Source: an uncultured Candidatus Saccharibacteria bacterium (GTDB lineage: Bacteria > Patescibacteriota > Saccharimonadia > Saccharimonadales > Saccharimonadaceae). Taken from it: a stretch of 64,000 nucleotides of DNA. The stretch is taken from positions 94,457-158,456 of the forward strand of contig CAMVNH010000002.1 in assembly GCA_947168825.1 (NCBI GenBank), read 5' to 3'. The notes below the pieces were generated by a model. That model had not been told where the DNA came from, searched no databases, and was given only the letters and a program-made list of their open reading frames with translations. The position numbers and the translations under genes are program-made. Positions 3,656 to 54,129 of the stretch are shown in pieces; position 1 is the first letter of the stretch, and each line of letters begins with the position of its first letter.

Positions 3656-3724
3656 GTGTTGAACGCTAAAGTGCGCCAACACGGAGCGATTATATAGCAA
3701 ATTTTGAAAAATTTACAAGCACTA
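3656..3724 (-). repeat. Dispersed promoter/leader element copy 1 (TGCTTGTAA-N18-TATAAT + leader)
   Basis: Reverse complement matches 50494-50562 at about 64 of 69 positions; contains -35 TTGTAA, 18-nt spacer and -10 TATAAT (3694..3689). Confidence 0.85.
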
Positions 3725-48299: not shown

Positions 48300-50489
48300 A
48301 TGGAAATTATTAACCCGATGGGGAAGAAAACAACTAGTGTGGCAACAGAATGGTGCGGACGTGAGCTATCACTAGAGGTGAACCGAGTTGGTTTCCGGAC
48401 GACTTCTTCGGTGCTGGTACGCTATGGTGATACCGTGGTGCTTGGTTCGGTGGTGGTCGGAAACAAGCCGGTGGTGCAGGATTTCTTCCCGCTATCGATC
48501 GATTATGAAGAAAAATTTTATGCGGCGGGACGGATTCCGGGTTCGCGGTTTATTAAGCGTGAAGGGAAACCTTCAGATAATGCAGTGCTTGTAGGACGTT
48601 TGATCGACCGTCCGATTCGTCCGTTGTTTCCAAAGGGTTATCGCCAGGAAGTACAGGTCGTGACGACAGTGCTTTCGATGGACCCAGATTTTCGTCCGGA
48701 TTGTGTGGCGATGGTGGCAGCTTCGGCAGCTTTGATGAACGCGGGCGTGCCGTTTGATGGACCGGTTGCGGGGGTGCGTATCGGGCGCGTGAATGGGGAG
48801 TTTAAGGCGTTCTTGACCGCTGAGGAGCGGGAGGCTTCGGACCTTGACCTCGTGGTAGCATGCCGCAATGGTAAGGTGATGATGGTTGAGGCTGGCGCGA
48901 AAGAAGTGCCGGAAGAGGTGATTATCGAGGCGATGCGCTGGGCGGTAGAGAACACAAAGCCGGCGTTAGAGCTCCAAGAACAGTTGAGAGAAGTGGTGAA
49001 GCCGGTGGAACAGGAATATGAATTAGTCTTGCCGGATGAGTCAATTCAAGAAAAGGTGGACGCTTGGACCGCTAAGCATTTTGGTGCGCACGGTGAAAAT
49101 GTGCGTGGAAATGTGATGGAGCGGGCAAAGATTTGTGAAGAGATGATGGCCGAGATGGATAAGGAGTTTGCTGAGGAGCTCGGTGAGGGGGAGACTCCAG
49201 AGGAGAAGACCGCAGATTATGACGAGCGTTTGAAGGCAGAATATGACGAGGCGTTTACGCTGTCCTTGCACAAAGAGGTGCGGCGATCAATCGTGGAAGA
49301 TGGGGTGCGTCCGGATGGACGTGCACTTACCGAGGTAAGACCTTTGTCATCGCAGGTTTCGATTTTGCCACGAACACATGGTTCTTCGCTGTTTACGCGT
49401 GGTGTAACACAGGCAATGAATATCGTGACATTGGCGCCACTATCGTTCTCGCAGTTGATTGACACGATGGAAGTAGAAGATGGAACGCGTCGTTACATGC
49501 ACTTCTATAATGCGCCGTCTTATACGGTTGGTGAGACTGGTCGTCTTGGTTCGCCAGGGCGCCGCGAAGTGGGACATGGTTATCTTGCGGAGAGAGCGCT
49601 GTCGGCGGTGTTGCCTTCGGAAGAAGATTTTCCATACGCGATTCGTTCGGTGACCGAGATTATGTCGCAGAATGGTTCGACTTCGATGGCGGCGACTTGT
49701 TCTTCGTGTCTCGCGCTCATGGATGCGGGCGTGCCTTTGAAGCGTCCAGTTTCTGGCGTAGCGATGGGGCTAATGATGGATGTGCCGAAGGGTACGGAAA
49801 TCACTGCGGCTGATGTTGATAAGGCTTATACACTAACTGACCTGATGGATGCGGAAGATTTTGCTGGCGATATGGACTTTAAGGTGACCGGTACAACCGA
49901 GGGTGTGACGGCACTACAAATGGATATGAAGGTGCATGGTTTGCCGGTAGATGTGCTTGAGAAGGCGATTAAACAGTCGCACGAAGGTCGAATGTTTATT
50001 CTAAATCATATGCTTTCGGTGATTTCTGGCCCACGCGACAAGATTTCTTCGCTTGCGCCACAAATTGAAAAAGTGAAGATTAATCCGGATAAAATCGGTG
50101 CAGTCATCGGTAAAGGTGGAGAGATGATTAATAAAATCACGACCGAGACGGGTGCGCAGGTAGATATTTCGGATGACGGGCTGGTGACGATTGCGGGGAA
50201 CAACCCAGAAGGAATTGCGAAGGCGGTTGAGTGGGTTAAGAGCCTGACCGAAGAGCCGGAAGTAGGGAAGATTTATACCGGTAAAGTTGTGTCGATTAAG
50301 GACTTTGGTGCGTTCGTGAATATTATGCCGGGGATTGATGGGATGTTACATGTTTCGCAGATTGCCGACAAGCGTGTCGAAAAAGTTAGCGATGTTCTTT
50401 CGGTTGGTCAAGAGGTGCGAGTGAAGCTAGTAGCAATCGATGACCGGGGTAAGCTTTCGCTTTCGATGAAGGGTGTCGACCAGAATTAA
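48300..50489 (+). CDS. pnp: Polyribonucleotide nucleotidyltransferase
   Basis: IPGSRFIKREGKPSDNAVLVGRLIDRPIRPLFPKGY; KH domain GAVIGKGGEMINKITTETGAQVDI; S1 domain. Confidence 0.98.
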   Translation: MEIINPMGKKTTSVATEWCGRELSLEVNRVGFRTTSSVLVRYGDTVVLGSVVVGNKPVVQDFFPLSIDYEEKFYAAGRIPGSRFIKREGKPSDNAVLVGRLIDRPIRPLFPKGYRQEVQVVTTVLSMDPDFRPDCVAMVAASAALMNAGVPFDGPVAGVRIGRVNGEFKAFLTAEEREASDLDLVVACRNGKVMMVEAGAKEVPEEVIIEAMRWAVENTKPALELQEQLREVVKPVEQEYELVLPDESIQEKVDAWTAKHFGAHGENVRGNVMERAKICEEMMAEMDKEFAEELGEGETPEEKTADYDERLKAEYDEAFTLSLHKEVRRSIVEDGVRPDGRALTEVRPLSSQVSILPRTHGSSLFTRGVTQAMNIVTLAPLSFSQLIDTMEVEDGTRRYMHFYNAPSYTVGETGRLGSPGRREVGHGYLAERALSAVLPSEEDFPYAIRSVTEIMSQNGSTSMAATCSSCLALMDAGVPLKRPVSGVAMGLMMDVPKGTEITAADVDKAYTLTDLMDAEDFAGDMDFKVTGTTEGVTALQMDMKVHGLPVDVLEKAIKQSHEGRMFILNHMLSVISGPRDKISSLAPQIEKVKINPDKIGAVIGKGGEMINKITTETGAQVDISDDGLVTIAGNNPEGIAKAVEWVKSLTEEPEVGKIYTGKVVSIKDFGAFVNIMPGIDGMLHVSQIADKRVEKVSDVLSVGQEVRVKLVAIDDRGKLSLSMKGVDQN

Positions 50490-50493
50490 GAAG

Positions 50494-50562
50494 CTACTGC
50501 TTGTAATTTTTTCAAAATTTGCTATATAATCGCTCTGTGTTGGCGCACTTTGGCGTTCAACA
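50494..50562 (+). repeat. Dispersed promoter/leader element copy 2
   Basis: TTGTAA 50501-50506, N18, TATAAT 50525-50530, then tgttggcgcactttggcgttcaaca leader; matches the reverse complement of 3656-3724. Confidence 0.85.
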
Positions 50563-50662
50563 AGATGAAATCTCTGGGTGGGAAACCACTTTCTGACTGC
50601 GAGGGGGTTTCATTGAACAGCTATTCTAGGTACGCTAGAAACCTCTAGAAAGGAGGAAGTCT

Positions 50663-50743
50663 ATGAGTTTGACTCTGAAATTATTTCGTCTCAGACTTAC
50701 GCTCACCCTTACTAAGGTGAAAGCCAAAAAATCTAGTCGCTAG
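50663..50743 (+). CDS. 26-aa basic peptide MSLTLKLFRLRLTLTLTKVKAKKSSR
   Basis: SD aaaggagg 7 nt upstream of ATG; below the ORF-track size cutoff. Confidence 0.5.
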   Translation: MSLTLKLFRLRLTLTLTKVKAKKSSR

Positions 50744-50758
50744 CAATAGCGACTAGAT
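50731..50758 (+). other. Perfect 12-bp hairpin with GCAA tetraloop spanning the sORF stop codon
   Basis: ATCTAGTCGCTA-GCAA-TAGCGACTAGAT. Confidence 0.9.
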
Positions 50759-50768
50759 ACCAACACAA

Positions 50769-50800
50769 AGACCAGGTTCCCTAGAGACTTGGTCTCTTTT
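50769..50800 (+). terminator. Intrinsic terminator
   Basis: AGACCAGGT-9nt-ACTTGGTCT then CTTTT. Confidence 0.7.
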
Positions 50801-50957
50801 ATATTCTTATTATATCAAACTTAAGCGATTTTGTCTAGGGGGTAGCTTCTTGCATCGATAATAAGAGTTAGGTATCAGGGGTTGATTTTTTTGCGGTTAT
50901 GGTATAAAATGAGGAAAATAAGTGAGGTTAAGAGCCTGGTGGGGGCGAAAGAAAATA

Positions 50958-53183
50958 ATGGCAAAAAAAAGAAAATCGACACGAAGGAAAAGTTCGAAAC
51001 GAACGACACGAGATGTGGCGCCGCAGCATGAGTTGCCGGGAGGTTTTTGGAGACAAGTTGGCGCAGTAGTAATGATAGCGCTCGCTGTAATGTTGGTGAT
51101 GACGTGGTTTGGTAGTGGAGGGAGCGCATTAAATACGGTCCATAAGACAGCGATGGATTTGATTGGATTTGCAGCGTATCTTGCGCCAGTGTTATTAGTT
51201 TATCTTGCGGTGATGATTTTTCGAAGCGATAATAATCGTTTGCCGGCTGTAATGTGGGTAGCGGCAATTTTGATGATTGTGTGGGGCGCAGGGATGGCTG
51301 GTATACCAACGATTGGGCAGAAAAATCCGACGGGGGGGATGCTTGGCGAATGGTTGAACGGATTTGTGACAGAGATTTTGGATCCGGGAGTGGCAGCATT
51401 TATATATATAGTGTTGATATTTATTACGGCTGTGTTTATTTTACAGATGAGCCCAGCTGCGGTCTTTAAGAAATTCTTTGCGATGTTTAAGACGACGAAG
51501 AAAGCGGAAGATGCAAAGAATGCGAAAGTGGCGCGCGAGGCGGAGAGCAAGGAGCCTATGGGTGGATTGAAAGTGAAGGTCGGGGGTGTGGCGGCAGAGG
51601 ATATCAAAAAGCAGTCGGCGTTTAAGATTCGGACCCCAGAAAAGAAGCCAGTAGCTCCATCTAATGAGCCACCAAAGGCGCTTGTATCAGTGAATGATCC
51701 AGATTGGAAAATGCCGCCGACTGATCTCTTGGAAAAGAAGGAATTACCGCCAGATTATGGCAATACACAACAGAACGCATATATTATCCAGTCTACGTTT
51801 AAGCAATTTGGGATTGACGTGGAGATGGATGGGGCGAATGTGGGTCCGAAGGTGACGCAGTATACAATGAAACCGCCGGCGGGTATGAGTTTGTCGAAGA
51901 TTTTGGGCCATGATAAGGAATTGGCACTTAATCTTGCAGTGGAGAGCGTGCGTATTGAAGCGCCGATTCCGGGGAAGAAGTTGGTTGGTGTGGAGATTCC
52001 GAACGTAAAGGCGGGACAGGTGAGATTGCGCTCAATCTTAGAGAGTGACGAGTGGAAGAAGTCGGAAGACAGGCTGTTGTTTGCGGTGGGGAAGGATATT
52101 TCTGGTAAGGTTGTGACGGCAAACTTGGCAAAGATGCCGCACCTTCTGATTGGTGGTACTACTGGTTCGGGTAAGTCGGTGATGATGAACACATTAATTA
52201 CATCGTTGTTGTATCGGAATGCGCCGAGTGATTTGAAGTTGATTTTAATTGACCCGAAGCAGGTGGAAATGTCGCTTTATGATGATATTCCGCACCTTTT
52301 GACCCCGATTATCACCGAGAGCGATAAGGCGGTGTCGGCGATGAAGTGGGCGGTGAACGAGATGGAGCGGCGTTATAGTTTGATGCGCGAGGAGCATGTG
52401 AAGACTATTATTGACTATAATAAGAAGATGGAAAAGGGTGAATCGTCTGAAGAGGATACGGGTGGCAAGATGCCATATATCGTGGTGATTGTGGATGAGA
52501 TGAGCGACATTATGATGGCGGCGGGGAAGGAACTTGAGCCGCCTATTGTGCGAATTGCGCAGAAGGGGCGAGCTGCGGGTATTCATCTGGTGCTTGCGAC
52601 ACAGAACCCGGTTGTGAAGGTTGTGACTGGTCTGATTAAGGCAAATGTGCCGGCGCGTCTTGCGTTTGCGGTACAGAACTTTACCGAATCTAACGTGATG
52701 CTCGGTATGGCGGGCGCGGAGAAGTTGCTCGGCGCGGGTGATATGTTGATGCTTACTACTGATATGATGGGGAAGCCACGTCGAGTGCAGGGCGCCTGGG
52801 TGTCGGATGATGAAGAGGAAAAAATTGTGGAGTTTTTGAAAGAGCAGCGGGCACCAGAATATAACGACGATGTGGTGTCGCAGATGGTGGGTTCGTTTGG
52901 CGATGGTGCGGTAGACGGTAACGCGATTGGAGGCCTGGGCCGAAAGTTTAATCCGCAAGATCCGTATGTGCGAAAAGCCGTGGAAATTTCGATTGCGAAT
53001 GGTTCGTTCTCGACTTCGGCGCTGCAGACGCAGCTTTCTAAGGGGCATGGGTTCGTATCTGGACTTGCAATGTGGCTTTTCGACATCGGAGTGATTGGTC
53101 CGAAGAACGGAAACAAGCCGCGCGAGGTTTTGATCTCTTCGCTAGAAGAGTTTGACGAGCACGCGGCCGGTTCCGCAGAATAG
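50958..53183 (+). CDS. ftsK: FtsK/SpoIIIE DNA translocase
   Basis: Four N-term TM helices; HLLIGGTTGSGKSVMMNTLI, LILIDPKQVEMSLYDDIPHLL, HLVLATQNPVVKVVTGLIKANVPARLAF; gamma domain. Confidence 0.97.
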   Translation: MAKKRKSTRRKSSKRTTRDVAPQHELPGGFWRQVGAVVMIALAVMLVMTWFGSGGSALNTVHKTAMDLIGFAAYLAPVLLVYLAVMIFRSDNNRLPAVMWVAAILMIVWGAGMAGIPTIGQKNPTGGMLGEWLNGFVTEILDPGVAAFIYIVLIFITAVFILQMSPAAVFKKFFAMFKTTKKAEDAKNAKVAREAESKEPMGGLKVKVGGVAAEDIKKQSAFKIRTPEKKPVAPSNEPPKALVSVNDPDWKMPPTDLLEKKELPPDYGNTQQNAYIIQSTFKQFGIDVEMDGANVGPKVTQYTMKPPAGMSLSKILGHDKELALNLAVESVRIEAPIPGKKLVGVEIPNVKAGQVRLRSILESDEWKKSEDRLLFAVGKDISGKVVTANLAKMPHLLIGGTTGSGKSVMMNTLITSLLYRNAPSDLKLILIDPKQVEMSLYDDIPHLLTPIITESDKAVSAMKWAVNEMERRYSLMREEHVKTIIDYNKKMEKGESSEEDTGGKMPYIVVIVDEMSDIMMAAGKELEPPIVRIAQKGRAAGIHLVLATQNPVVKVVTGLIKANVPARLAFAVQNFTESNVMLGMAGAEKLLGAGDMLMLTTDMMGKPRRVQGAWVSDDEEEKIVEFLKEQRAPEYNDDVVSQMVGSFGDGAVDGNAIGGLGRKFNPQDPYVRKAVEISIANGSFSTSALQTQLSKGHGFVSGLAMWLFDIGVIGPKNGNKPREVLISSLEEFDEHAAGSAE

Positions 53184-53426: not shown

Positions 53427-53463
53427 AGTATATAGCAAATTTTGAAATTTTTACAAGCACTAG
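53427..53463 (-). repeat. Dispersed promoter element copy 3
   Basis: Minus: TAGTGCTTGTAA-N18-TATACT. Confidence 0.75.
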
Positions 53464-53766: not shown

Positions 53767-54129
53767 ATGAAACAGTACGAACTTACTGTGATGATTCATC
53801 CAGATCTTGAGATGAATCTGCAACCAGCACTAGACAAAATCAGCAAATTGATTGAGTCTGTCGGTGGTAAGATTATCAAAGAAACGAATGAAGGCAAGAA
53901 GCGCATGGCTTACAAGATTGCAAAGCAAGAGTTTGCAGTCTACTATGCTTATGATTTGGAGCTTCCTAGCGATGCACCAGAAAAGTTAGAGCGTTCGCTT
54001 TCGATTGCGGATGAAGTAATTCGTCATCTGCTCGTATCTAAAGATGAGCGCAAAGAAAAGATGGCAGCTAAGCGCAAGGCGGCTGGTGTCGATGATGAAA
54101 AAGGGGTAAGTGAAGAGGAGGAGAAATAA
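53767..54129 (+). CDS. rpsF: 30S ribosomal protein S6 (bS6)
   Basis: YELTVMIHPDLEMNLQPALDKISKLIESVGGKIIKETNEGKKRMAYKI. Confidence 0.95.
   Translation: MKQYELTVMIHPDLEMNLQPALDKISKLIESVGGKIIKETNEGKKRMAYKIAKQEFAVYYAYDLELPSDAPEKLERSLSIADEVIRHLLVSKDERKEKMAAKRKAAGVDDEKGVSEEEEK

Follow-up and report, generated by a model that had tools for sequence, protein, structure and literature searches.

A repeated Saccharibacteria gene family with a structured, covarying mRNA and a predicted antisense RNA: a probable type I toxin–antitoxin-like module

The window, a 64,000-nucleotide stretch of DNA, is part of contig 2 of a 578-kb Saccharibacteria genome assembled in 8 contigs. The locus analyzed here lies between pnp (48300–50489) and ftsK (start near 50922–50958, end 53183), two gene names that were taken over from the initial annotation and with which the translations are consistent. 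That annotation described an orphan transcription unit with a structured leader, switch-like hairpins, a small basic peptide, a tetraloop hairpin and a terminator. Every coordinate it gave holds (TTCTAG at 50624–50629, CTAGAA at 50635–50640 and 50645–50650, CCTC at 50642–50645). The features of the locus on both strands are as follows.

50501–50530, plus strand: mRNA promoter TTGTAA-18-TATAAT, read from the sequence; the full copies, when aligned, show a comparable promoter ahead of the conserved GGGTTGG at the 5′ end
50537–50662, plus strand: structured mRNA leader (~125 nt in the family), based on covariation in 38 divergent copies and on the leader covariance model R1
50538–50542, plus strand: 5′ strand of helix E, pairing with 50761–50765 and closing the 5′ to the 3′ end (80% of cells paired, one double-change pair)
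50556–50561, plus strand: 5′ strand of helix A, pairing with 50612–50617 (89% of cells paired)
50605–50611 (GGGTTTC), plus strand: helix B, pairing with 50638–50646 just upstream of the Shine–Dalgarno sequence (96% paired, double changes in 6 of 7 pairs)
50619–50621 with 50634–50636, plus strand: P3 stem-loop with the loop TTCTAGG (84% paired)
50624–50630 (TTCTAGG), plus strand: leader side of the kissing element K, with the partner CCTAGAG at 50780–50786 (97% paired, double changes in 6 of 7 pairs)
50652–50656, plus strand: Shine–Dalgarno sequence (SD) GGAGG, read from the sequence and conserved across the family
50663–50743, plus strand: 26-aa open reading frame, MSLTLKLFRLRLTLTLTKVKAKKSSR, net charge +8, with an alternating hydrophobic pattern; coding evidence from the sequence and from pN/pS of subfamilies I and II
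50769–50795, plus strand: mRNA terminator, read from the sequence (9 of 9 pairs covary), the loop of which, CCTAGAG, is the K partner
50731–50758, minus strand: putative antisense-RNA terminator, a 12-bp hairpin with a GCAA loop over the stop codon, assigned from its T-run and a strand-specific G-U bias
50725–50803, minus strand: antisense RNA predicted from promoter and terminator, about 79 nt long and complementary over its full length to the mRNA 3′ end (fold z −4.6)
50837–50809, minus strand: antisense promoter TAGACA-17-TATAAT, read from the sequence and conserved in copies

The view that this is a compact transcription unit whose leader is structured is borne out by the unit's own promoter and terminator, by covariation and by the predicted fold of the transcript, which is far more stable than that of shuffled sequences (−97.7 versus −66.1 kcal/mol, z −6.2). 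The terminator expected after the stop hairpin is likewise present. The initial annotation recognized no known riboswitch or noncoding RNA, and a search with the Rfam covariance models agrees: at the gathering score only three tRNAs were found in the whole window, with no riboswitch match and no family within the unit. A tmRNA was looked for in addition and none was found.

The unit is not an orphan. It is one copy of a repeated gene family in Saccharibacteria, which are tiny parasites, previously undescribed within the open-licence literature, with about 94 related copies in all. The genome of the window itself contains two full copies, a further copy interrupted where a contig ends, and a remnant: over the unit of ~337–340 bp the copy on contig 8 is 95% identical and the copy on contig 1, which runs off the contig end, 79%, and the remnant on contig 3 comprises 81 bp of the antisense end only; further, shorter fragments are also present. 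A protein profile built from ten copies and then from 36 (cut-off E ≤ 1e-3) detected the family in at least 48 of the 174 genomes of the genus, with up to seven matches per genome. The genomes searched are mostly draft metagenome-assembled genomes (MAGs), and several copies are located at contig ends, as is expected because repeats break assembly. Similar loci were also found in Candidatus Saccharibacteria MAGs from, among others, sheep ileum and water buffalo rumen. The covariance model R1, which is based on the leader alone, identified extra members that the peptide profile had missed, within the same genus and in the genera g32 and g42 of the family; the g32 and g42 loci share the leader core, the basic peptide, the stop hairpin and the terminator, and g32 contains tandem pairs of copies. 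A shorter version of the leader model matched only members of this gene family in 384 genomes of the phylum and is therefore specific. Among 393 genomes of the order, weak protein matches occurred outside the genus, and those in G303 and G457 proved real, since they lie directly after matches of the leader model. An exact DNA pattern that includes the window's own SD region had no match in the genome contigs. Homologues of the peptide with the same leader, which the initial annotation had suggested looking for, thus exist within the genus and in g32 and g42.

All copies have a common architecture of promoter, leader, basic peptide, stop-codon hairpin, plus-strand terminator and opposing minus-strand promoter. 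None of the 94 copies is overlapped by an open reading frame of at least 100 aa, so the layout fits several loci among unrelated neighbors, and the neighboring genes differ between copies.

Partial and aberrant copies were observed as well. A fragment at 3657–3724 (minus strand) of the window retains the promoter and the first ~30 nt of the leader of a second copy (94% identity) and lies upstream of another gene, as if captured as the promoter of that gene. In L012, 1497–1590 (contig 3, 4836–4877), the SD and the first six codons (MSLTLK) are fused to a different short open reading frame that is followed by a strong terminator. A full-length copy in G071 (L142) has an open peptide frame without an in-frame ATG and resembles a frameshifted start. 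Eight copies (L123, L092, L138, L128, L136, L129, L141, and L010 in the window's own genome) are 5′-truncated, most of them near codons 5–12 (L010 later), and keep the antisense promoter, both hairpins and the C-terminal codons; they may be antidote-only loci or products of decay.

The peptides of the family are 20–31 aa long and basic. In subfamily I (MGIxFSLWRIxITVxLS...) pN/pS is 0.32 in frame compared with 0.98 (+1) and 1.7 (+2), and in subfamily II (MTIQINLLCIIFP...) it is 0.20 in frame compared with 0.84 (+1) and 2.7 (+2). The ratios were computed for these two subfamilies; the window's own is too small for the test, and its copies differ mainly by synonymous changes outside the hairpin. 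These substitution patterns indicate that the peptide is coding and under purifying selection, which upholds the earlier call of a 26-aa basic peptide. The six peptides examined have a net charge of +6 to +9 and an alternation of hydrophobic and polar residues over residues 2–17 (moment 0.41–0.59 at 170 degrees versus 0.08–0.22 at 100), and a test for an alpha-helical transmembrane segment favored beta-type periodicity in all six, with a short hydrophobic run in subfamily II. Comparisons of the peptides with Pfam, NCBIfam, PADLOC, PHROGs and PDB sequences gave no match apart from one sub-threshold Pfam match.

The initial annotation had not considered the minus strand, and its account lacked the minus-strand promoter, the T-run that makes a minus-strand terminator, the pairings between the 5′ and 3′ ends and the multi-copy nature of the unit. 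A minus-strand promoter with at least 9 of 12 consensus matches is present in 87% of the copies compared with 20% of shuffles, and the one in the window matches a promoter found upstream of other genes across the genus. The perfect 12-bp GCAA hairpin over the stop codon was described correctly; its role points to the opposite strand. A T-run follows this hairpin on the minus strand only, and since a G-U pair in the RNA of one strand corresponds to an A-C mismatch in that of the other, the strand on which the hairpin is maintained can be tested. Among the internal non-Watson–Crick pairs of 58 distinct stop hairpins, 33 are G-U when read on the minus strand and 6 when read on the plus strand (binomial 1.4e-5), and the plus-strand terminators of the same copies show the opposite bias (wobble minus 17, plus 109; Fisher 2.5e-16 against the stop hairpins), the binomial and permutation tests in this study taking copies as independent although they are related. 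The G-U bias and the T-run together indicate that the hairpin is kept as an antisense-RNA terminator. An antisense RNA complementary to the mRNA is therefore predicted to be encoded at the locus, with a predicted length of about 68–83 nt in almost every copy. The two lysine codons near the end of the peptide (Lys-Lys, AAAAAA) coincide with the antisense T-run, so that one stretch would have two roles.

Two observations concern promoter sequences elsewhere. Two divergent promoter-like copies of GTGCTTGTAATTTTT..TATATA are located in an intergenic position at 53429–53463 (minus strand) of the window, upstream of a rpsF-like gene at 53767, and a long shared promoter, about TTGACAAAATCGCTTAAGTGTGATATAATAAGAATATA, is found upstream of many unrelated genes across the genus (L023–L047).

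The structure of the mRNA was analyzed in 38 divergent transcripts (similarity ratio below 0.80), counting seven helices. Of 1639 cells, 89% are paired, compared with 72.5% in shuffles and 32–50% with the partners slid, and 348 cells carry double changes compared with 126 in shuffles. Conservation and covariation in relatives, on the presence of which the initial annotation had made its proposal depend, are thus both strongly present. Helix B lies beside the SD with P3 inside it and remains 91% paired in a wider set that includes other genera. In helix E the bases transcribed first pair with a site ahead of the terminator; the alignment of its 3′ side is poor. The claim for helix A is weaker, since it is not preserved in three members with GGGAAGTG; it crosses helix B, and the leader would therefore be a pseudoknot or two alternative structures.

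The kissing element K connects the P3 loop with the terminator loop, 150 nt apart. Its complementarity exceeds that of permuted partners both overall (6.56 versus 5.62, 0 of 3000 permutations as high) and in 20 variant leaders (6.45 versus 4.18, 0 of 3000 as high), in permutation tests that ignore relatedness, with variants that take several distinct forms. The two loops change jointly, as in GCTAAGT/ACTTAGC, GTTAGG/CCTAAC, TTCCATG/CATGGA, TTCCAGA/TCTGGA and GTATAGGT/ACCTATAC. The initial annotation had proposed that TTCTAG switches between the two CTAGAA copies and thereby gates translation. This switch is not conserved: across relatives TTCTAGG pairs with the terminator loop, and the second CTAGAA and the hairpin between CCTC and the SD occur in the window's own subfamily only. 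Being complementary to the terminator loop, the predicted antisense RNA has the loop sequence of the leader and should compete with the leader. Sequestration of the SD by the 3′ end found no support in nested folding, which gave nearly the same probability of an unpaired SD for the full-length and the truncated transcript (0.26 versus 0.25), in a model that cannot represent pseudoknots and with a truncated form that kept E′.

Several of these properties recall known type I systems. In hok/sok, fold-back of the mRNA 5′ and 3′ ends keeps the transcript inactive, the Sok antisense RNA is directed at the leader region at the 5′ end, and Hok is a larger protein; the mRNA fold-back is alike here and no sequence relation was seen. 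The chromosomal multi-copy AapA/IsoA loci of Helicobacter pylori encode a ~30-aa peptide with a basic C-terminus on a ~225-nt mRNA closed by a long-distance 5′–3′ interaction, with an ~80-nt antisense RNA (PMC8167048, PMC6733600, PMC10537873). The present family shares the multiple copies, the short basic peptide, the 5′–3′ closure of the mRNA (here with covariation in E and K) and the predicted ~80-nt antisense RNA. It differs in phylum and in the long-distance contact, here a kissing loop and an end helix. The aapA3 antisense RNA has its promoter inside the toxin open reading frame (PMC6733600). In the present family this promoter is located past the mRNA terminator, so that the mRNA 3′ end would be covered by the antisense RNA; for this reason the family was not filed as a member of AapA/IsoA. 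The last 16 residues of one peptide (L096, MSVEFRFLGLKLVVVLKR...) resemble the end of AapA1, LKISFLGCKVVVLLKR, more closely than any of 1000 shuffles (score 45 versus 26.5, SD 4.1), but AapA1 scores 2.3 bits with the family profile, which is not a match, and no relationship is claimed.

In Gram-positive type I systems the antisense RNA usually pairs with the 3′ end of the mRNA (PMC8167048), and in bsrG/SR4, txpA/RatA and yonT/SR6 of Bacillus subtilis the toxin mRNA and the antisense RNA overlap at their 3′ ends (PMC8167048, PMC5848175). The 3′-end overlap and the small peptide are similar here, as is the charged C-terminus in the case of BsrG, but the Bacillus toxins are larger and hydrophobic (TxpA 59 aa, YonT 58 aa), SR6 is 100 nt long, and no sequence relation to the three modules was found. 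At the short Fst par locus of Enterococcus pAD1 the toxin and antitoxin RNAs, RNAI/RNAII, converge (PMC8167048) and share one bidirectional terminator instead of the separate hairpin for each strand seen here; Fst is a 33-aa alpha-helical membrane peptide (PMC8309996).

We consider it probable that the unit is a new multi-copy type I toxin–antitoxin-like module in Patescibacteria, with toxicity inferred, because the layout of a small toxin-like peptide with a basic C-terminus, the 3′-overlapping antisense RNA and the 5′–3′ interaction match known modules (PMC8167048, PMC8309996, PMC6733600). Comparative sequence evidence supports coding, the antisense promoter and terminator, E, K, helix B and the copy number. 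The plus strand would produce an mRNA of ~265 nt encoding a short and strongly basic peptide, probably active on membranes, and the minus strand a ~75–80-nt antisense RNA from a standard strong promoter, starting just past the mRNA terminator, ending inside the last codons and fully complementary to the mRNA 3′ end. The mRNA would close on itself twice, by the end-to-end helix E and by K, the kissing contact of the terminator loop with the leader loop next to the SD. Leader and antisense RNA, which have the same loop sequence, would compete for the terminator loop. Both RNAs would be made, the closed mRNA may be poorly translated, antisense pairing may lead to decay of the duplex and keep the peptide off, and the peptide may harm its own cell when uncontrolled. 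Against this reading, the peptide lacks a clear transmembrane alpha-helix, unlike known membrane-acting type I toxins, and no peptide was matched as a toxin in Pfam, NCBIfam, PADLOC or PHROGs.

The same observations could arise if the peptide acts outward, as a secreted or released basic amphipathic peptide that is antimicrobial or aimed at the host bacterium of the epibiont, with antisense RNA and fold-back merely limiting expression. Its charge and alternating hydrophobic pattern would suit such a role, as would subfamilies that vary in sequence within a constant RNA architecture, but we consider it unlikely: no signal peptide is visible, an unsystematic look recognized no export or processing gene beside the copies, whose neighbors are diverse, and antisense-covered, self-closing mRNAs are typical of self-harmful products. 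Slightly less likely still is a selfish or mobile repeat, such as a small non-autonomous element, that uses peptide and antisense RNA for its own copy control. Copies that are dispersed and nearly identical within a single genome (95% over 340 bp), assemblies that break at copies, the tandem copies in g32 and the truncated copies would all be expected of such an element. The window copy and L006 extend from the plus-strand −35 to the minus-strand −35, and by eye no terminal repeats or target-site duplications are present at their boundaries; no linked recombinase was noticed in an unsystematic look, and the peptide is under purifying selection.

The 5′-truncated copies, which in several genomes keep the antisense promoter, the terminator and both hairpins, could instead point to a regulatory RNA pair acting mainly in trans, in which antisense halves control several paralogues and the peptide is a benign signal. 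We judge this very unlikely given the strong coding constraint, and recent decay could be enough to explain the truncated copies. A cis-regulatory RNA or leader-peptide attenuator that controls ftsK or senses a ligand, as the switch idea of the initial annotation implies, would explain the compact pseudoknot-like fold directly upstream of the SD. It is the most improbable of the four alternatives, as the unit has its own promoter and terminator, the downstream genes differ between copies, and the leader structure is tied to the terminator loop and not to the alternative CTAGAA partners.

The type I-like reading can be extended, tentatively and with some doubt, to a new, lineage-restricted group of RNA-controlled self-toxins in Patescibacteria, whose peptides are basic and of beta type and whose antisense RNA mimics the kissing loop of the leader and so breaks or replaces a leader–terminator contact that governs translation; stand-alone antisense copies would then be antidote-only loci. 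The presence of a multi-copy, RNA-regulated toxin-like family in genomes of ~0.5–1.3 Mb raises the question of why such reduced epibionts would keep it. The RNA of the family combines unusually strong covariation with a leader-to-terminator kissing loop that the predicted antisense RNA would mirror, an arrangement that is directly testable.
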